A DNA stretch of 64,000 bases, taken from Prosthecobacter debontii. Its GTDB lineage: Bacteria > Verrucomicrobiota > Verrucomicrobiia > Verrucomicrobiales > Akkermansiaceae. Shown here one piece after another: positions 4,188 to 64,000 of the stretch. Below the pieces are notes generated by a model. That model was not told the origin of the DNA and did not search any database. It saw nothing but the letters and a program-made list of their open reading frames with translations. Within the stretch, counting starts at the first letter, position 1, and each line of letters starts with the position of its first letter. A program made the translations under genes and the position numbers. The stretch is taken from contig CAMBTP010000003.1 in assembly GCA_945870855.1 (NCBI GenBank), positions 1 through 64,000 of the forward strand. The letters are read 5' to 3'.

Positions 4188-7100
4188 TCAAAGCCTCCGC
4201 TCCAACGCGGCGGCCACGCGTTTCTCGGAGATTTTGCCCTTCACCTCGACATCGGGGGCGAAGGTTTGCACTCGCCATTCTTCCAGCAGCCAGCCTGCTT
4301 CCCAGAGCCTCGCATCCTCTGGCGCGGCCATCCATTCCGTGAACCATCCCTGCCAATGACGGCGGACGATATCCATTTTCTCCAGATCCTTTACCAAAGG
4401 TAAACTTGCCACCCGACCTAGCCGTGAGCGAATGGCACGCAGCCGTCGTGGATAATCAATGAGCCGCGCGTAGCCCGCCCGCCATGCCCATTTTGCTCGG
4501 AACAGCCACGCGAGTTCCTCCTCAAGATCGGCGGCGATCTCACCATGGTTGCGATCATCTGCATGCGCGGAGATCCATTCCCGCACACTACGCACCGCAT
4601 CGACAATCCCATCCAGCGCCACTCCGATTTTCACCGCCGCCTCATACCAGCTGCCGTGCGTGGCTTCGTTGAGCTTCGCGAACGCCTCGGGGCTTCTCGG
4701 GAAATCGCCGCCTGCCACGCCCTCTGCTGTTAGAAGAATCAGATCTTCCATATCGATCCCAAACCTGCCCATCTCGACCTTTGCAAGCATGCCCATCGGG
4801 AATTTTTTCCGTAGGTAATCCACCTCTCGCTCCGCCGCCAAGATCAGCAAACGTGCTCCGCCCGCGCGATGCGATTCACGCGCCTCCTGAAGAATCGTGA
4901 AAGCCCGCACGCCCACCGTTTTTCCCTCATCCACCAAGGCAGGAAAAGTCGCACCACCCGCCGTCATGACTTCTTCCGGTAGGCACTCTCCATCCCAACG
5001 GCTCATACCACGACGCTCCACATCCGCCGTCGCCGCCGCCTCGAAGCGTGCCTTCATCCAGTCAGAGAGTTGTAATTTAAGCACGGCCACATCGGTGCCC
5101 ATCGCAAGCTCCCCGCCCTCGTCATCGCAGACCCAAATTTTCGTAATGAGGTGCTCGGGAAATTTCCCTGTATCGAACTCGCTGGGTGGAATCACGGCAC
5201 CCGTTCTATCGGAAACATAATCCGCAAGAGTAAACTCGATAGCCATCTCTTTCGGAGCACCCATCCAGAGCTCCGCAAAGCCACGCGCCACATCGCCGAT
5301 GGGCTGGCAGGCTTTGCGGTAATCCTTGGGCAACCCTCGCAGCAACAACTCCGCCCGCTCCTCCAGATTCCCATCGATCCCCCACCCCGGCAGCCACGCG
5401 GGCATTACTGGAAGCTGATCGACATGCACGCCGATGGTCACTCCATCGTCACGCTCGCCGGGCGCGCAATGGTAATAGACCGCATACTCCTCGCCCTCGT
5501 GGCGCAGGTTATCCGGGAAAAAATCCAGCCCTTTCAGCTCCTCCCAAACCACATCCGCCATACCCAGCATCAGCGAATCCTCGTTTGCCTCGCGCCACTT
5601 GTGGAAGGCCGCCGCCGTACTGATATCCAGCGGAATACGGTTTCCGAAAAACCTCACCACCGCATCCTCACTCCACAACATCCCGGGCCTTCTGAGCTTG
5701 TCCTCCAAGCCTTTAATCTCCTCCCGCATCGCCTCCATGTGATCGAGGAAACGCGTCTTTCTCCGCAGCCCGCCGCCTAAAATTCCCTCCCGTAGAAACA
5801 CCTCGTGCGCCGCCTTTTTGTCCACCCGCCCGTAATGCACACGCCGGCCCTCGATGACGTGCAGCCCGCCGCAGATCACCGTCTCCTTGCCATAGACAGC
5901 TCCCTGTTTCTCGTCCCAATGCGCCTCGCCGTAACGACTGCGGCACAGATGCGGCGCCACCGTCTCCACCCACTCCGGTTCGATCCGCGCCACCCGCCGC
6001 GCCCACAGCCGGCTCGTCTCCACCATCTCTAAGCCCATCACCCACTCGTTGCGTTTCTTCAGCGAAAACAAACACGACCCCGGAAACACCGCGAAGAAAC
6101 CACCCGCAGCACTCCGGTAAGCCTTGTTCTCCTTATCCCACAGCCCGAACTGCCGCGGTGCTCCCGCGAGCAAAGCACGGTGCAGCGCCGCATAATCCGG
6201 GTCTTCCCTCTTACTTGGGATTTGAATTTTGAAATTTGAAATTTCCGCCAACTCCTCGATCACATTCCCCCACTCTGTCACCCGCTTCGCGTTGAGAAAA
6301 TTCGCACCGCAGAATTTCCGAAGCTGGTTCCACTTCCACCTACGCCCATCGTAGTAGTTGGAAACGTCGCGCCACAGATTCAGGATCGCCATGAAATCGC
6401 TGTCCGCATCATTCCACTTCGCGTGAGCGGCATCCGCCTCGCGCTTTTTATCAGCCGGGCGCTCGCGCGGATCGCTGGTCTCCAGCGCGGCGACGATCAC
6501 CGTCACCTCATCCACGCATTTCTCGTGATGCGCCTCGATCAGCATCCGCCCCATGCGCGGATCCACCGGCAGACGCGCCAGCTCCTGGCCAATTTCTGTC
6601 AGCTCCCTGTCCGTATCGAGCGCGCCAACCTCGCGCAGCGTCCGGTATCCCTCGGCCACTGCTTTCGGGTTCGGCGGATCGAGGAAAGGGAACTCGGAAA
6701 TCTCCGGCAGCCCCAGCGATTTCATTCGCAGGATCACACCCGCCAGCGAGCTGCGGCGAATTTCCGGCTCCGTGAAATCAGGCCGATCCAGCAAATCCTC
6801 TTCTGCGTAGAGCCGCAGGCAAACGCCGTCCCGCACCCGCCCGCAACGCCCCTTCCGCTGCCGAGCGCTGGCTTGGCTCACCGGCTCCACCTGCAAGCGC
6901 TGCACGCCCTTCGCCGCATTCCACCGGCTAACCCGTGCCAGACCGCTGTCCAGCACGCAAGCGATGCGCGGGATGGTCAGGCTCGTTTCCGCCACGTTTG
7001 TCGCCAGCACAATGCGCCTTAGCCGCCCCGGCTCGAACACCCGTTGCTGATCTGCCATCCCCAGCCTCGCAAACAGCGGCAGCACCTCGGTATTCCGATA

Positions 7101-7913
7101 GCGCCTACCCTCCAGCGCATCCGCGCACTCGCGGATCTCGCGCTCGCCCGGCAGGAAAATAAGCGTGTCGCCCATGGGATCGATATCATTGAGCTGATCC
7201 ATCCCCCGCGCAACCAGCGAGGCCAGTTCTTCATCGTCCTTGCCCGGCAGGAAAAACTCCGCCACCGGAAACATCCGCCCCGGAGCCTCGATCACCGGCA
7301 CGCGTAGCTGCCGCGTCTCGCGGCAGTCCGTGGAATTGGCGTCTCGCCGATTGCTAAAAAACTCCGCAAAAGCCCCCGCATCCAAAGTCGCCGAGGAAAT
7401 CACTATCCGCAGATCCGGCCGCTTTTCTAACAGCCTTTTCAAATACCCCAGCAGGAAATCAATATTCAATGATCTCTCATGCGCCTCGTCGAGAATCAGC
7501 GCGTCGTATTTCGCCAATCCCGCATCCCCCTGCGTCTCCGCCAACAGGATGCCATCCGTCATAAACTTGATCCGCGTTTCCCGCGAAGTCTTGTCATCGA
7601 ACCTTACCTGATACCCCACGAACCCACCCAGCGGCACCGCCAGTTCCTCCGCCACCCGCTTCGCCACACTCACCGCCGCAATCCGCCGCGGCTGCGTACA
7701 CCCAATGATCTTCCTCTTACTTGAAATTTGAGATTTGAAATTTGAGATTTCAAGCGCCTCCGCGACCATTTTGGGCAACTGCGTCGTCTTCCCACTGCCC
7801 GTATCGGAAACCACCACCACCACCTGATTCTCCCGGATCGCGGCGATGATCTCCTCCCGCCTCTCCACAACCGGTAATTCACCCGGATAATTCCACCTGC
7901 CCGAAAAACTCAT
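4188..7913 (-). CDS. hrpA: ATP-dependent RNA helicase, HrpA type (DEAH box, DUF3418)
   Basis: A 1241-aa DEAH-box helicase close to the roughly 1300 residues of E. coli HrpA, which acts on mRNA and stalled ribosomes. Walker A is DTGSGKTTQLPK (37-48), motif Ia is TQPRRIAA (73-80), then DEAHERSLNIDF, SSATLD, and motifs V/VI with NVAETSLTIP and QRKGRCGR. The C-terminal half is the HrpA-specific helical/DUF3418 part. Two near-identical peptides, EISNFKSQISSKRK (about 55-68) and EISNFKIQIPSKRE (about 557-570), are encoded by AT-rich repeats inserted in the same codon phase. The first lies between motif I and motif Ia, where related helicases have a short variable loop. Core motifs are intact, so the enzyme should be functional. 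Confidence 0.93.
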   Translation of the reverse strand: MSFSGRWNYPGELPVVERREEIIAAIRENQVVVVVSDTGSGKTTQLPKMVAEALEISNFKSQISSKRKIIGCTQPRRIAAVSVAKRVAEELAVPLGGFVGYQVRFDDKTSRETRIKFMTDGILLAETQGDAGLAKYDALILDEAHERSLNIDFLLGYLKRLLEKRPDLRIVISSATLDAGAFAEFFSNRRDANSTDCRETRQLRVPVIEAPGRMFPVAEFFLPGKDDEELASLVARGMDQLNDIDPMGDTLIFLPGEREIRECADALEGRRYRNTEVLPLFARLGMADQQRVFEPGRLRRIVLATNVAETSLTIPRIACVLDSGLARVSRWNAAKGVQRLQVEPVSQASARQRKGRCGRVRDGVCLRLYAEEDLLDRPDFTEPEIRRSSLAGVILRMKSLGLPEISEFPFLDPPNPKAVAEGYRTLREVGALDTDRELTEIGQELARLPVDPRMGRMLIEAHHEKCVDEVTVIVAALETSDPRERPADKKREADAAHAKWNDADSDFMAILNLWRDVSNYYDGRRWKWNQLRKFCGANFLNAKRVTEWGNVIEELAEISNFKIQIPSKREDPDYAALHRALLAGAPRQFGLWDKENKAYRSAAGGFFAVFPGSCLFSLKKRNEWVMGLEMVETSRLWARRVARIEPEWVETVAPHLCRSRYGEAHWDEKQGAVYGKETVICGGLHVIEGRRVHYGRVDKKAAHEVFLREGILGGGLRRKTRFLDHMEAMREEIKGLEDKLRRPGMLWSEDAVVRFFGNRIPLDISTAAAFHKWREANEDSLMLGMADVVWEELKGLDFFPDNLRHEGEEYAVYYHCAPGERDDGVTIGVHVDQLPVMPAWLPGWGIDGNLEERAELLLRGLPKDYRKACQPIGDVARGFAELWMGAPKEMAIEFTLADYVSDRTGAVIPPSEFDTGKFPEHLITKIWVCDDEGGELAMGTDVAVLKLQLSDWMKARFEAAATADVERRGMSRWDGECLPEEVMTAGGATFPALVDEGKTVGVRAFTILQEARESHRAGGARLLILAAEREVDYLRKKFPMGMLAKVEMGRFGIDMEDLILLTAEGVAGGDFPRSPEAFAKLNEATHGSWYEAAVKIGVALDGIVDAVRSVREWISAHADDRNHGEIAADLEEELAWLFRAKWAWRAGYARLIDYPRRLRAIRSRLGRVASLPLVKDLEKMDIVRRHWQGWFTEWMAAPEDARLWEAGWLLEEWRVQTFAPDVEVKGKISEKRVAAALERRL
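6202..6245 (-). repeat. AT-rich interspersed repeat, in-frame copy 2 in hrpA
   Basis: On the minus strand this reads GAAATTTCAAATTTCAAAAT, continues with two more ATTC-type units, then CCCAAGTAAGAGGGAAGA. It aligns with the inverted-repeat arm at 62369-62406 apart from a TAAGAGG insertion before the terminal GAAGA. It adds about 14 codons (EISNFKIQIPSKRE) near residue 557 of the helicase and starts on the first base of a codon. Confidence 0.75.
7709..7754 (-). repeat. AT-rich interspersed repeat, in-frame copy 1 in hrpA
   Basis: On the minus strand this reads GAAATCTCAAATTTCAAATC and ends CAAGTAAGAGGAAGA. It is the close sister of the copy at 6202-6245: same orientation, same reading phase, nearly the same encoded peptide (EISNFKSQISSKRK). 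It is inserted between helicase motifs I and Ia. Confidence 0.75.
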
Positions 7914-59576: not shown

Positions 59577-60584
59577 ATGGAATACGCTACCGAGTCCGAA
59601 GTCGCCGAAGCAGCGAAGCATCTCCGCTCCCTCAGCCAAGGCCTCAACCACGTGCTTTTCGGCCAAGAGGAAATCATCGAGCTGGTCATCACCGGCGTCC
59701 TCGCCCGTGGCCATATTCTTCTGGAGGGCTTGCCCGGTCTTGGCAAAACAGAACTCGTAAAAGGCCTCTCCAAGCTCCTGCGCCTGGAAAATAAACGCGT
59801 CCAGTTCACTCCCGATCTCCTCCCCGGTGATATTACGGGAAACCCCGTACTTCAGGAAGTCGATGGCCGCCGCGAGTTCGTGTTCCAGCCCGGGCCGCTG
59901 TTTGCGAACATCGTCCTCGCCGACGAGATCAACCGCGCCTCGCCAAAAACGCAATCGGCCCTGCTCGAAGCAATGCAAGAGCGCTGCGTGACCGTGCTGG
60001 GAAAAACCCACGAACTGCCGCTGCCATTCTTCGTCCTCGCCACGCAAAACCCCATCGAACTCGAGGGCACCTACCCACTGCCCGAGGCTCAGCTTGATCG
60101 CTTCCTTTTCAAGCTGGAGATCACCCGCAACAATGTGGAGACGCTCCAGCGCATCGTTTCCCAACGCGAGATCGGCACCGAGCCTGTCGTCGAGCCAATC
60201 ATGACCGGCGAAACGCTCACCAGCCTGCTCGCCCTAGTCCGCCGCATCCACATGCCGGATGTCGTCGCAAATTACATCGCCCGCCTTGTCGATTCCACCC
60301 ACCCCGGCCAATCCGACACCGCCGCGCTAATCCGCTTCGGAGCCAGCCCCCGCGCCGCCCTCGCCATGGCCTCCGCCGCGAAGGCCCGTGCCCTCCTCCA
60401 CGAGCGCATGAACGCCTCTTTCGAGGACGTCAAAGCCATCGCTCCCTCCGTGCTGCGCCACCGCATCGTGCTGGATTACAACGCACGCGTAGATGGTCAC
60501 TCGCCGAACTCTGTCGTCGCAACCCTTCTCAAACAGGTGCCCTTCCAGGACTCCCCCACCCCGAAAACCCTCGTCCCCGCATAA
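59577..60584 (+). CDS. MoxR-family AAA+ ATPase
   Basis: A 335-aa MoxR chaperone-like ATPase. Walker A GLPGLGKTEL (51-60), Walker B VLADEINRASPKTQSALLEA, sensor-type ATQNPIELEGTYPLPEAQLD. Such proteins often act with DUF58/VWA proteins or membrane complexes. Here it precedes a secreted membrane protein and an ABC transporter in one direction; no DUF58 gene follows directly. Confidence 0.9.
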   Translation: MEYATESEVAEAAKHLRSLSQGLNHVLFGQEEIIELVITGVLARGHILLEGLPGLGKTELVKGLSKLLRLENKRVQFTPDLLPGDITGNPVLQEVDGRREFVFQPGPLFANIVLADEINRASPKTQSALLEAMQERCVTVLGKTHELPLPFFVLATQNPIELEGTYPLPEAQLDRFLFKLEITRNNVETLQRIVSQREIGTEPVVEPIMTGETLTSLLALVRRIHMPDVVANYIARLVDSTHPGQSDTAALIRFGASPRAALAMASAAKARALLHERMNASFEDVKAIAPSVLRHRIVLDYNARVDGHSPNSVVATLLKQVPFQDSPTPKTLVPA

Positions 60585-60589
60585 TGTAG

Positions 60590-60632
60590 CTGCGGCGTCT
60601 CGCCGCAGGCCGTGCAAGCTGCGTCTCGCAGC
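60590..60632. repeat. Two tandem hairpins with TCT loops
   Basis: CTGCGGCG-TCT-CGCCGCAG (60590-60608) is followed by GCTGCG-TCT-CGCAGC (60618-60632). Both have the same stem end and the same TCT loop. They lie between the MoxR gene and the 573-aa protein gene. The terminator at 19542 (GGGCTGCA-TTC-TGCAGCCC) has a related form. They may be copies of one small intergenic palindrome or attenuators. Confidence 0.45.
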
Positions 60633-60649
60633 GAATCCCAAATCCATTT

Positions 60650-62371
60650 ATGAGCCGCCTCCTCCTCGCTCTCCTCATTTTCCTCAGCACCCTTCACGCT
60701 CAGGAAACTCTCTTCCGCGTGGTCGCTGACACCAAGACCGACACCCACATCGAGGCCACCGCCCTGTTCTCGAACCCCAGCCTCGGCGGCTACCACCCCG
60801 TCCGCATCACCATCTCGAACAACCAGAAAATCCCGCACAAAGTCTTCCTCAATTTCAACAACACATCGGCCTACAGCCAGGGAATCAGCGCCTCCTCGAG
60901 TTTCTCATTCGAAGCCCCCCCGGGCGATGTGGTCGTGAGGGATATTCTCGTGCCCCTTACCGTCCAGAACGGAGACCACAATGCCCCCTCATTCAGCGTC
61001 CAGCTCAGTGGCTCGATGGGTAAAGCCCAAGGCTCCGCGAGTCCCATTTTCACCCCCACACTCGCCTGCGTCCTTCTCAGCGAGGCTCTTTACACCCCCA
61101 ATGGCTCAGCACTCGACACCGAGTCCGCCTCGCGCGGCACCTCCGGCTACGGTGGCATCAGAAATTTCTCCTCGAAATTCGATCCCAAACGCCTCCCCGA
61201 TGACTGGCGCGCCTTCTCGGGGTTCGACACCATCATCCTCACCGAGACAGATTGGGCGGATGTCCCACCCGGCCCGCGCAACGCCATCAACTCATGGGTG
61301 CGCCTCGGCGGACAGCTAATCGTTTATGCCACCGGCAATCCCACTCCTGCTTCCCTCGGGTTGCCCGAAGACTCGGGTTTCGGTGAAACTCTTATCGAAT
61401 CTATCGCCTCCGATCTCCGCCTCAAAGCCGCAGACACCGTCAACCTCGCCTACAAGAAGCGCGCCATCAAACACCGCCTCGCGGCGATCAGCAACGATTT
61501 CAATTCCGTATGGCCGTTGCAGATAGCATTCGGGGAGAAATCATTTAATTACATCCTCTTCGTCGTCATACTACTCGCCTTCGGCATTGTCGTCGGTCCC
61601 GTGAACCTCTTCGTCTTCGCGAAATCCGGCCGCCGCCACCGCCTTTTCATCACCACCCCGCTGATCTCCATAGGCACCTCGTTCATCCTCATCGCACTGA
61701 TTATTTTCGAGGATGGATTCGGCGGAAATGGCACACGCATTACATTGATGGAAGTCCGCCCGGACGGAAACCAGAACGCCGCCTTCATCCAGCAGGAGCA
61801 GTTTTCCCGCAGCGGCGTGATGACCTCAACCTCCTTCACCGTGGAAACGCCGGCTCTCATCGCTCAAACCCCGCTCGCCATGAGCCGTTGGGCACGTTTC
61901 ACCTCCGGCTTCCGCTCCTCGGGAACCTATGATCTCCAACCCACATCCGGCGGTCTCTTCGCCAGCGGCGATTGGTTCCAGAGCCGCTCCGAGCAAGGCC
62001 AACTCGTCACCGCCGTGCTCCCCACCCGCGGCCGCATCGAGGCCACCAACGACCCCGCCACCATCGTCTCCACCTTCGATTTCTCCATCGAAATCCTCCT
62101 CTACCGCGACCCCTCCGGCCAATGGCACCGCGGTGAAAATATAGGAAAAGGCAAGCCCACCAAGCTCACCCCCGTCGATCCCACCATGGTGCAGCCCATC
62201 CTCAACGACACCGCCAAACTCTTCACCGACCGCAACCAAGCCTTCCTCCGCCGCGTCGCCGACCGCAACGACGCATACATCGCCTTCGCCAAACAAGCGC
62301 CCGCCATCGAGACCCACCCCGGCATCAACTGGCAGTCCGACACAGTCATCACCGGCCCCATCGCCCGCTGA
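60650..62371 (+). CDS. Secreted/membrane protein of the MoxR-ABC operon
   Basis: A 573-aa protein. The signal peptide is MSRLLLALLIFLSTLHAQE. A beta-rich domain (about 20-300) includes FNNTSAYSQGISASSSFSFE. Then two membrane segments (about 300-350): YILFVVILLAFGIVVGPVNL and LISIGTSFILIALIIFEDGF. A C-terminal periplasmic part follows. Context (MoxR before, ABC transporter after) recalls gliding-type or exopolysaccharide export operons, but no specific family is recognised. Its TGA stop forms the left edge of the repeat-bounded unit at 62369. Confidence 0.75.
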   Translation: MSRLLLALLIFLSTLHAQETLFRVVADTKTDTHIEATALFSNPSLGGYHPVRITISNNQKIPHKVFLNFNNTSAYSQGISASSSFSFEAPPGDVVVRDILVPLTVQNGDHNAPSFSVQLSGSMGKAQGSASPIFTPTLACVLLSEALYTPNGSALDTESASRGTSGYGGIRNFSSKFDPKRLPDDWRAFSGFDTIILTETDWADVPPGPRNAINSWVRLGGQLIVYATGNPTPASLGLPEDSGFGETLIESIASDLRLKAADTVNLAYKKRAIKHRLAAISNDFNSVWPLQIAFGEKSFNYILFVVILLAFGIVVGPVNLFVFAKSGRRHRLFITTPLISIGTSFILIALIIFEDGFGGNGTRITLMEVRPDGNQNAAFIQQEQFSRSGVMTSTSFTVETPALIAQTPLAMSRWARFTSGFRSSGTYDLQPTSGGLFASGDWFQSRSEQGQLVTAVLPTRGRIEATNDPATIVSTFDFSIEILLYRDPSGQWHRGENIGKGKPTKLTPVDPTMVQPILNDTAKLFTDRNQAFLRRVADRNDAYIAFAKQAPAIETHPGINWQSDTVITGPIAR

Positions 62372-62406
62372 AAATTCAAAATTCAAAATTCAACTCTCAA
62401 GGAAGA
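62369..62406 (+). repeat. Left 38-bp inverted repeat of the four-helix-bundle unit
   Basis: It reads TGAAAATTCAAAATTC, another AAAATTC unit, then CAACTCTCAAGGAAGA. It is the exact reverse complement of 62798-62835. The first three bases are the stop codon of the upstream gene; GGAAG near the inner end sits 6 nt before the ATG at 62412 and probably serves as its ribosome-binding site. Confidence 0.9.
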
Positions 62407-62411
62407 AAAGG

Positions 62412-62807
62412 ATGTCGGCTCAACGGAACAAAGAGAAACCATACGATCTGGAGGAGCGCACTTACGCCTTCGCACTCGAAGTCCGACATTTTCTCCGAAA
62501 CACCAAGTGGGATCCAGTCTCTTGGTCTGATATCAAGCAGGTTCTCCGCTCCTCAGGCTCCGTTGCGGCGAATTATCTCGAAGCTCTCGAATCTCTCAGC
62601 CCAGACGATTACCTTTACCGTATCCGCATTTGCAAAAAAGAAGCACGCGAATCGGGACTCTGGCTTCAGCTTATAAGTGACAGCAACCCCATCGACGAAT
62701 CGATCCACCGCTCCCTCGACGACCTGATTGGCGAAACCAGTGAACTCGTTAAAATCTTCTCATCCATAATCCGTAACAAAACCACGCAAAACCAACATCT
62801 TCCTTGA
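62412..62807 (+). CDS. Four-helix-bundle protein (TIGR02436/S23 family)
   Basis: A 131-aa protein. RSSGSVAANYLEALESLSPD and YRIRICKKEARESGLWLQLI match the core of the four-helix-bundle family first seen in intervening sequences of 23S rRNA genes. Members form small pentamers with basic surfaces; bacterial DGR Avd proteins are relatives. The ribosome-binding site lies in the left inverted repeat, and the last residues (HLP) and the stop codon TGA lie in the right one. Role unknown; presence between inverted repeats suggests it helps the unit spread or be kept. Confidence 0.88.
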   Translation: MSAQRNKEKPYDLEERTYAFALEVRHFLRNTKWDPVSWSDIKQVLRSSGSVAANYLEALESLSPDDYLYRIRICKKEARESGLWLQLISDSNPIDESIHRSLDDLIGETSELVKIFSSIIRNKTTQNQHLP

Positions 62808-62835
62808 GAGTTGAATTTTGAATTTTGAATTTTCA
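62798..62835 (+). repeat. Right 38-bp inverted repeat of the four-helix-bundle unit
   Basis: It reads TCTTCCTTGAGAGTTGAA and continues with GAATTTT units to TTCA. It is the exact reverse complement of the left repeat. It contains the stop codon of the four-helix-bundle gene at its inner end, and its last base is the A of the ATG of the ABC ATPase gene. Confidence 0.9.
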
Positions 62836-63857
62836 TGAGTGCCGCTATCACCGTCCACAACCTTTACCGCTTCTTCGGGCCACTTCAGGCTGTCAACGGC
62901 GTGTCTTTTGAAATCCCGCATGGCTCCGTCTGCGGATTCGTCGGCGCGAATGGGGCGGGGAAAACCACCACGATGCGCATCCTCGCATCGCTCGACTACC
63001 CGACCATGGGCCATGCCGAAATCTGCGGGATCAATGTGATCCATCATCCCGCCGAAGTCCGCCGTCTTATCGGATGGATGCCGGATCATTTCGGCAACTA
63101 CGATAACATGACCGTCCTAGAATACCTGGACTTCTACGCCCGCGCTCTCGGCTATAAGGGCGCGGAGCGCCGCCAGCGCATCGATGAGGTCATGGATTTC
63201 ACCGACCTCGTTCCGCTCGCCGACCGCTTTTCCAACAAGCTCTCCAAGGGCATGACCCAGCGCCTCTGCCTCGGCCGCTCCCTGCTTCACGATCCGCAAG
63301 TGCTCATCATGGACGAGCCCGCTGCCGGTCTCGATCCCAAGGCACGTGTCGAACTCAAACACCTCATCCGCGTCCTCGCCAAGGAGGGTAAAACTATTTT
63401 CATCTCCTCCCACATCCTCTCCGAACTCGGCGAAATGTGCGATTCCCTGCTCTTCATCAACAACGGCCGCATCGTCCACCACGGCGATGCGGAGAGCCTG
63501 AAAAAATCCACCGATCTTCTCGGCGGAGTCCTTTACGATGTGCAGCTCGATGGCGATCCGCAGGCACTCTCCGATTGGGCGGTTCTCCAGCCGAACATCG
63601 AGTTCCTCGAGTCCCGGAAAAACGGCGGGCGCATCCGCATCGACACCGAGGACCCCAACAAAGCCGCGGATGTCCTCGCCCGCATGGTCAAGGATCAGCT
63701 CCGCGTCGTCGATTTCCACCGCGAGCAACGCAACCTCGAGGACGCCTTCATCGATATCCTCGCCAACCTGGAGAAAAACCAGCCCGCCTTCACCACCCCA
63801 CCCCCGCTCCCACCACAGGGCAGCCTCCTCCCCGCCGAGCCCCCCTACGAGCCGTAA
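62835..63857 (+). CDS. ABC transporter ATP-binding protein (ABC-2 type)
   Basis: A 340-aa ATPase. Walker A GANGAGKT (37-44), signature LSKGMTQRLCLG, Walker B VLIMDEPAAGLDP, and H-loop SSHILSE are intact. The C-terminal 100 residues are the extra domain of GldA/CcmA-type exporters, ending in a proline-rich tail. The following gene, cut by the window edge, is its probable permease. The ATG begins on the last base of the right inverted repeat, so the local promoter or ribosome-binding region was rebuilt by the insertion. Confidence 0.92.
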   Translation: MSAAITVHNLYRFFGPLQAVNGVSFEIPHGSVCGFVGANGAGKTTTMRILASLDYPTMGHAEICGINVIHHPAEVRRLIGWMPDHFGNYDNMTVLEYLDFYARALGYKGAERRQRIDEVMDFTDLVPLADRFSNKLSKGMTQRLCLGRSLLHDPQVLIMDEPAAGLDPKARVELKHLIRVLAKEGKTIFISSHILSELGEMCDSLLFINNGRIVHHGDAESLKKSTDLLGGVLYDVQLDGDPQALSDWAVLQPNIEFLESRKNGGRIRIDTEDPNKAADVLARMVKDQLRVVDFHREQRNLEDAFIDILANLEKNQPAFTTPPPLPPQGSLLPAEPPYEP

Positions 63858-63863
63858 CCAGCC

Positions 63864-63900
63864 TCTTCCTTGAGAGTTGAACTTTGAAATTTGAATTTTA
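63864..63900 (+). repeat. Solo copy of the AT-rich repeat
   Basis: It reads TCTTCCTTGAGAGTTGAA, then CTTTGAAATTTGAATTTTA. It matches the right inverted repeat (62798-62835) at all but about three positions, in the same orientation. It lies between the ABC ATPase stop and the permease ATG, with no four-helix-bundle gene. AACCA occurs near both sides (63856 and 63900), too weak to call a target duplication. Confidence 0.8.
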
Positions 63901-63907
63901 ACCACAC

Positions 63908-64000
63908 ATGCACCTCTTCGATTTCCCAGACCGCCTATCCCCGATGCTCGTGAAAGAGCTACGGCAAGGCATGCGCACGAAGGCCTTCGTCGGCGTGTTT
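63908..64000 (+). CDS. ABC-2 permease-like protein, N-terminus only (cut by window edge)
   Basis: An ATG at 63908 opens 31 codons to the window end: MHLFDFPDRLSPMLVKELRQ then GMRTKAFVGVF. The MLVKELRQGMRTKAF start is typical of the cytoplasmic N-terminal helix of ABC-2 permeases preceding the first membrane segment. It follows the ATPase gene by 50 bp. Confidence 0.7.
   Translation, partial: MHLFDFPDRLSPMLVKELRQGMRTKAFVGVF

Follow-up and report, generated by a model that had tools for sequence, protein, structure and literature searches.

Introduction

The intervening sequence (IVS) of the Coxiella burnetii 23S rRNA is 428 nt long and has a 28-bp terminal stem, tandem GACAGAT heptamers and an AG-rich, Shine-Dalgarno (SD)-like AGAAGA upstream of its S23p/IVP gene (PMC4990558). 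Mobility of the IVS was proposed in 1993 by Ralph and McClelland (cited in PMC4990558). Structures of S23/IVP proteins have been solved since 2006, and no function has been assigned to them; one of these structures, 2GSC, is a pentamer (PMC4990558, PMC3936711). A second system, the REPIN/RAYT partnership, joins one gene to a population of short repeats (Bertels and Rainey, PMC3116915). The gene product, RAYT, is a transposase of the Y1/HUH type, and the repeats (REPs) are palindromes rich in GC. Intergenic heptamers, known for decades, have also been described, without a mechanism, in Xanthomonas and Nostoc (PMC4692102) and in Beggiatoaceae (PMC4679880). In the text searched, neither PMC4692102 nor PMC4679880 ties a four-helix-bundle gene to these heptamers, and no paper in the open-access literature searched links heptamer repeats to the S23/IVP family (subscription papers were mostly outside the search).

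Here we describe a unit of 467 bp in a 64,000-nucleotide stretch of DNA from Prosthecobacter debontii, the whole of which is called the window below. It carries one small helix-bundle gene between inverted copies of a 7-base-periodic repeat.

Results

A single gene between perfect inverted arms

The features of the unit, its insertion context and the single arms found by comparing arms across the window are as follows.

60650..62371, + strand: upstream host gene, 573-aa predicted membrane protein (insertion context, outside the unit)
62369..62406, + strand: left arm, 38 bp, TGA(AAATTCA)n ... CTCTCAAGGAAGA; its outer end overlaps the upstream gene's stop codon
62401..62405, + strand: GGAAG, ribosome-binding-like site inside the left arm at its inner end, 6 nt ahead of the ATG (read directly)
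62412..62807, + strand: four-helix-bundle gene, 131 aa, PF05635/TIGR02436 S23/IVP family; sole gene inside the unit
62798..62835, - strand: right arm, reverse complement of the left arm without a mismatch; its outer end extends into the start codon (ATG) of the ABC ATPase gene
62835..63857, + strand: downstream host gene, ABC transporter ATPase (insertion context, outside the unit)
63864..63901, - strand: single arm, 35/38, filling the gap from the ABC ATPase gene to the next gene
6209..6246, - strand: single diverged arm, 32/38
7715..7752, - strand: single diverged arm, 30/38

The two arms are exact reverse complements at 38 of 38 positions, with no further match outward. A perfect 38-bp inverted repeat with its copies 391 bp apart is far beyond chance, and a chance origin of the arms was rejected. 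The stop codon (TGA, 62805-62807) of the 131-aa gene lies within the right arm. In a computed fold, the RNA of the unit formed the full 38-bp stem (z -4.3); a known RNA family was rejected, as Rfam gave no match in 60000-64000. The 573-aa upstream membrane protein had no Pfam match. At the inner arm end (62394-62406 in the window; likewise at loci L001, L003 and L210) we observed AAGGAAGA or a similar purine-rich, SD-like sequence, which looks conserved although the heptamers differ by family. The AGAAGA of the Coxiella IVS is found at the matching position.

A preliminary description, made from the sequence alone, had reported perfect 38-bp inverted arms at 62369-62406 and 62798-62835, a lone 131-aa four-helix-bundle gene inside them, a ribosome-binding site (GGAAG, 6 nt before the ATG) and a stop codon supplied by the arms, the absence of a transposase from the unit and diverged single copies of the arm elsewhere in the window. 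All of these points held: the arms match 38/38, the only gene is the four-helix bundle, now matched to PF05635/TIGR02436, and three single arms were found (35/38, 32/38 and 30/38). Three things had escaped the description: each arm is a tandem array of 7-nt repeats, the arms directly adjoin stop and start codons, and the gene family in general has this layout, in phylum after phylum.

The encoded protein belongs to the S23/IVP family

The 131-aa protein scored above the curated cut-offs of both family profiles, with 39.2 bits for PF05635 (cut-off 33.8, E 9e-10) and 58.1 bits for TIGR02436 (cut-off 24, E 9e-16). Its AF2 model (pLDDT 88) has a four-helix fold like that of the solved members, and a structure search returned 2RLD and 2GSC as the best PDB matches. 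Avd of diversity-generating retroelements (DGRs) was a weaker structure match, both alone (4DWL) and in an RNA-protein complex (8UB7). Eleven residues were invariant over 44 relatives (R16, Q43, S50, N54, E57, K75, K76, E77, E80, E108 and I115). Comparison of the IVP gene with those of the related genomes G151 and G179 gave a Ka/Ks of ~0.06-0.07, which indicates strong purifying selection on the protein.

Inverted arms accompany the gene family across phyla

The genome of the window (G000, 2.98 Mb) contains 8 TIGR02436 genes, 6 of them with clear flanking inverted repeats and 2 (L005, L006) with weak arms only. The repeat differs by gene (AAAATTC, AGTGAGA, GTTATTC, AAGACAT, GTTGATG and the period-8 AAACGCTG). 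Flanking repeats whose sequence varied by gene were likewise present at 79 loci from Verrucomicrobia, Planctomycetes, Patescibacteria and others. The inverted-repeat score reached 12 or more at 88% of 69 IVP loci, compared to 11% of 154 control genes, which were small neighbouring genes (p 6e-28). Where flanks were self-periodic, the period was 7 nt in 37 of 47 and 9 nt in 8. Heptamer-like arrays were also found beside IVP genes of plasmids from cyanobacteria (Nostoc, Anabaena), Bacteroidota, Treponema and Chloroflexota; on a Nostoc plasmid the arms were (CAATTCG)n and matched at 34/34 positions.

Among close relatives, arm type was shown to track protein type. Over 54 loci, mean arm similarity rose from ~0.1-0.2 at protein identities under 60% to 0.43 at 60-80% and to 0.85 at identities over 80%. 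Below 60% identity there was no correlation between arm and protein distance (rho -0.10), so the tracking is limited to closer relatives. Two IVP genes that are 58% identical and lie in one genome had different arms, while pairs at 85-88% had a common arm family. When neighbours were compared, no gene family was common to more than 6 of 68 loci, and a helper gene in cis was rejected on this ground.

One alternative is that the protein is merely a passenger, the heptamer arms having spread by other means (slippage, recombination or another element's transposase) and the gene having been caught between them. In its favour, no catalytic function is known for the protein, many arms lack a gene, and some nearby heptamer arrays have no assigned gene. 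Against it, nearly every family member across phyla lies between inverted arms, unlike other small genes; moreover, arm type tracks protein type and the gene is under strong purifying selection. We consider the passenger reading unlikely.

On cyanobacterial plasmids, four-helix-bundle genes with heptamer-like arrays of their own were seen between or beside cas1 and cas2 (L222, L225, L228). IVP genes in cas loci have been noted earlier (PMC3936711), and it is possible that those reported there are insertions of arm-flanked units. On a Nostoc plasmid (L221), the gene has a DDE transposase gene on one side and xisH/xisI on the other, and a very long array of AAGTCGC heptamers follows downstream.

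The unit is present, absent or exchanged as a cassette

At 30 orthologous junctions in the family, 6 carried complete units (the window's included), 2 carried remnants, 7 had gene-less repeats and the rest had nothing. At some of the junctions without anything, the stop and start codons overlap. Similarity between the left and right arm within one genome was 0.91, compared to 0.80 for left arms between genomes, and the arm type at the junction switches as a block: GAATTTT in G000, G179 and G151, GTTTAAA in G111 and others, and ACTTGGA at L141. At L134, the orthologous junction has only TAActtggaacttcATG, apparently the relic of an ACTTGGA arm, which touches both the stop and the start codon.

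The unit and its flanks gave different pictures of relatedness. Between G000 and G179 the units were 95.2% identical in DNA and the flanks 87.8/89.8%, while between G000 and G111 the units were 72% identical and the flanking genes 88/94%. The flank tree joined G000 with G111, and a grouping of G000 with G179 and G151 was rejected (AU 7e-6); with the IVP data, it was the grouping of G000 with G111 that was rejected (AU 8e-4). The switch of identity pattern along the sequence falls at the arms. These conflicting trees, together with the switch at the arms, indicate that the cassette, arms included, differs in history from its surroundings. This separate history is compatible with replacement by homologous recombination and with re-insertion alike.

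Another unit of the window's genome, L003, is shared by G000 and G098. It is missing from G151, G111, G090, G189, G158 and G156, where the flanks are conserved and no arms are left. The filled and empty sites are too diverged to define any target-site duplication. At the L007 junction, arms of different families lie against one start codon in different genomes. Two Patescibacteria genomes each carry two units (L063/L068 and L084/L096) that are 79-81% identical arm to arm and have unrelated flanks. The similarity stops at or near the arms, that is, at defined ends common to copies at different sites. Boundaries, presence or absence, exchange and whole-unit duplication of the cassette are shown by these comparisons.

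A neutral inherited spacer was rejected by the empty sites and the conflicting trees. Maintenance of arm pairing by single compensatory changes only is less likely, as the arms switch type as a block and partnerless single arms switch type as well. The empty orthologous sites, the conflict between unit and flank trees at the arms and the whole-unit duplicates elsewhere together support mobility of this one-gene unit. We conclude that the 467-bp unit is real and transferable as a cassette and that its movement is well supported.

Could it be a non-autonomous, MITE-like offshoot of a classical insertion sequence that relies on the transposase of that element for its movement? Its terminal inverted repeats and small size would fit. 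However, the arms are 7-nt tandem arrays that vary by unit while the gene family is constant, no target duplication was seen (with the caveat given above for L003), and distant phyla have the same one-gene layout with arms of unrelated sequence. This explanation appears very unlikely, a judgement made without a genome search for a transposase with matching ends.

Arms are dispersed through genomes that carry the gene

A search of the whole G000 genome with an 18-nt arm core found 58 sites at up to 3 mismatches, compared to 0 for the reversed control. Exact matches to TTYAANNYTCAAGGAAGA, the core of the window's arm, numbered 37 in the genome. Two other arm families of this genome were likewise dispersed, as judged by whole-genome patterns (a 184-kb sample was uninformative). 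Of 28 copies, 17 had the start or stop codon of a long reading frame no more than 12 nt from the outer arm end, and 3 had one that close to the inner end.

Over 61 genomes of the genus, at least 5 arm cores were present in 11/11 genomes with the orthologous gene or a remnant of it and in 1/50 of the others (Fisher 3e-11). This statistic is uncorrected for phylogeny, and G098 was counted by its remnant. Core density was 1.6-4.7 per Mb with a broken gene and 5.2-12.4 per Mb with an intact one (p 0.006). One genome, G148, has 18 arms, yet no close copy of the gene was found in it. Dispersal of the arms and their co-occurrence with the gene are shown by these counts; that dispersal requires the protein is inferred.

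Several single arms contain a conserved insert of ~63 nt, GTGAGCATAGCGAAC...CATAGCCATCAGGCAA, at a fixed point inside the array (L009, L011 and L021 in the window's own genome, L193 in G151, L245 in G148). The G151 orthologue of the window's single arm at 63864-63901 is interrupted by this insert, which could be another small mobile repeat or represent a long form of the arm. The single arm after the ABC gene (63864..63901 in the window) is of another type in G111. At L044 (G158) and L045 the helix-bundle gene is frameshifted and the arms are still recognisable.

The position of the arms raises the possibility that the protein is a post-transcriptional regulator. The arms would be RNA-binding sites before start and after stop codons, and the 38-bp hairpin, a possible substrate of RNase III, would serve to autoregulate the protein's own gene. 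Consistent with this, outer arm ends adjoin start and stop codons far more often than inner ends do (17/28 and 3/28 within 12 nt), the unit RNA forms the full 38-bp stem (z -4.3), Avd, of like fold, acts in an RNA-protein complex (8UB7), and regulation has been proposed for TAACTGA heptamers at start codons (PMC4679880). However, the sites are not conserved in relatives, where one start codon can have arms of different families depending on the genome. The unit itself was gained, lost and exchanged, and units at different sites point to spread and not to a fixed regulon. Regulation remains a rather unlikely possibility, and we rank it below the cassette partnership proposed next.

Discussion

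The family-wide layout leads us to regard a partnership like that of REPIN and RAYT as the best explanation. By this analogy, the unit would be a minimal mobile or transferable cassette that works with an Avd-like helix-bundle protein, a reading to which we incline without regarding it as settled. There would be one gene per repeat family, and the window's arm would belong to a dispersed family linked to this gene. The pentamer-forming, Avd-like S23/IVP protein would recognise the periodic arm as DNA or as an RNA hairpin; this binding, like the role of the protein as a whole, is inferred. Whole cassettes and, more often, arms alone would be copied or exchanged into gaps between genes, a step for which the need for the protein is likewise an inference. 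Neighbouring genes would survive, the outer arm ends abutting stop and start codons. The chemistry is also inferred: the enzyme that cuts and joins may be supplied in trans by the host or by an element, or the conserved polar residues of the protein may have such an activity that has gone unrecognised.

Several points count against this REPIN/RAYT-like reading. There is no recombinase inside the unit, and no gene family recurs next to it at more than 6 of 68 loci. A target-site duplication could not be defined. The arms of the 8 G000 units are all different, so that none is a recent copy of another within this genome. The unit has stayed at the window's junction in two genera, and its exchange there may be no more than ordinary homologous recombination after transfer. 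Finally, the co-occurrence statistic lacks a phylogenetic correction, G148 has its 18 arms with no close gene copy found, and 2 of the 8 genes of G000 have weak arms only.

The constant pairing of gene and heptamers across phyla, taken with exchange and co-occurrence, makes a single testable hypothesis of two open questions. Should the protein drive movement, it would be a mobility protein unlike known transposases and belong to one of the smallest gene-bearing mobile units. A bolder reading, which at present we would sooner doubt than adopt, is that S23/IVP proteins are the mobility factors of a widespread, hitherto unrecognised class of minimal mobile elements, which end in inverted heptamer arrays of variable sequence and move without a known transposase fold. 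Such a class would cover the 23S rRNA IVS and explain the heptamers of cyanobacteria, Xanthomonas and Beggiatoaceae.

The preliminary description had also read the locus as a minimal non-autonomous or helper-dependent mobile unit. The mobility part is supported, while for helper-dependence no transposase or other enzyme has been identified. Kinship to proteins of 23S rRNA IVSs held by profiles, and likeness to DGR accessory proteins held by fold (Avd); nucleic-acid binding, which it had thought plausible, remains an inference without binding data. It had proposed looking for the arm across the genome, for units with different helix-bundle genes, for empty orthologous sites and for target duplications. 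The arm proved abundant outside the window, units with different genes and different arms were found as predicted, and empty sites were found; no target duplication could be shown. Presence at the same place in all relatives with neutral drift of the arms, or absence of the arm from the rest of the genome, would have refuted the idea. The unit is missing in some relatives, there is no independent drift of its two arms, and copies of the arm are common elsewhere in the genome.

Comparison with known systems

The Coxiella IVS and the window unit share the arrangement of one S23p/IVP gene between terminal inverted repeats and are similar in size (428 nt and 467 bp). Unlike the 23S IVS, the window unit lies between protein genes, not in rRNA; its arm belongs to a family dispersed genome-wide, and its gene is intact and under purifying selection. 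We believe that the unit is likely a free-standing relative of the 23S rRNA intervening sequences.

Compared to DGRs, the likeness is limited to the common fold with Avd, at a sequence identity of ~10-12%. There is no reverse transcriptase and there are no template or variable repeats inside the unit, which lies between the genes of a membrane protein and an ABC ATPase.

With REPIN/RAYT, the unit shares one gene that persists at one site and short repeats dispersed between genes, single or in inverted pairs. The difference lies in the components, as the window unit pairs a four-helix-bundle protein with tandem 7-nt arrays rich in AT, and has no Y1/HUH transposase and no known recombinase. The heptamers of cyanobacteria, Xanthomonas and Beggiatoaceae are likewise intergenic tandem arrays, often near start codons and partly in inverted pairs. 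What sets arms of the window's type apart from these described heptamers is that the gene is their constant partner.
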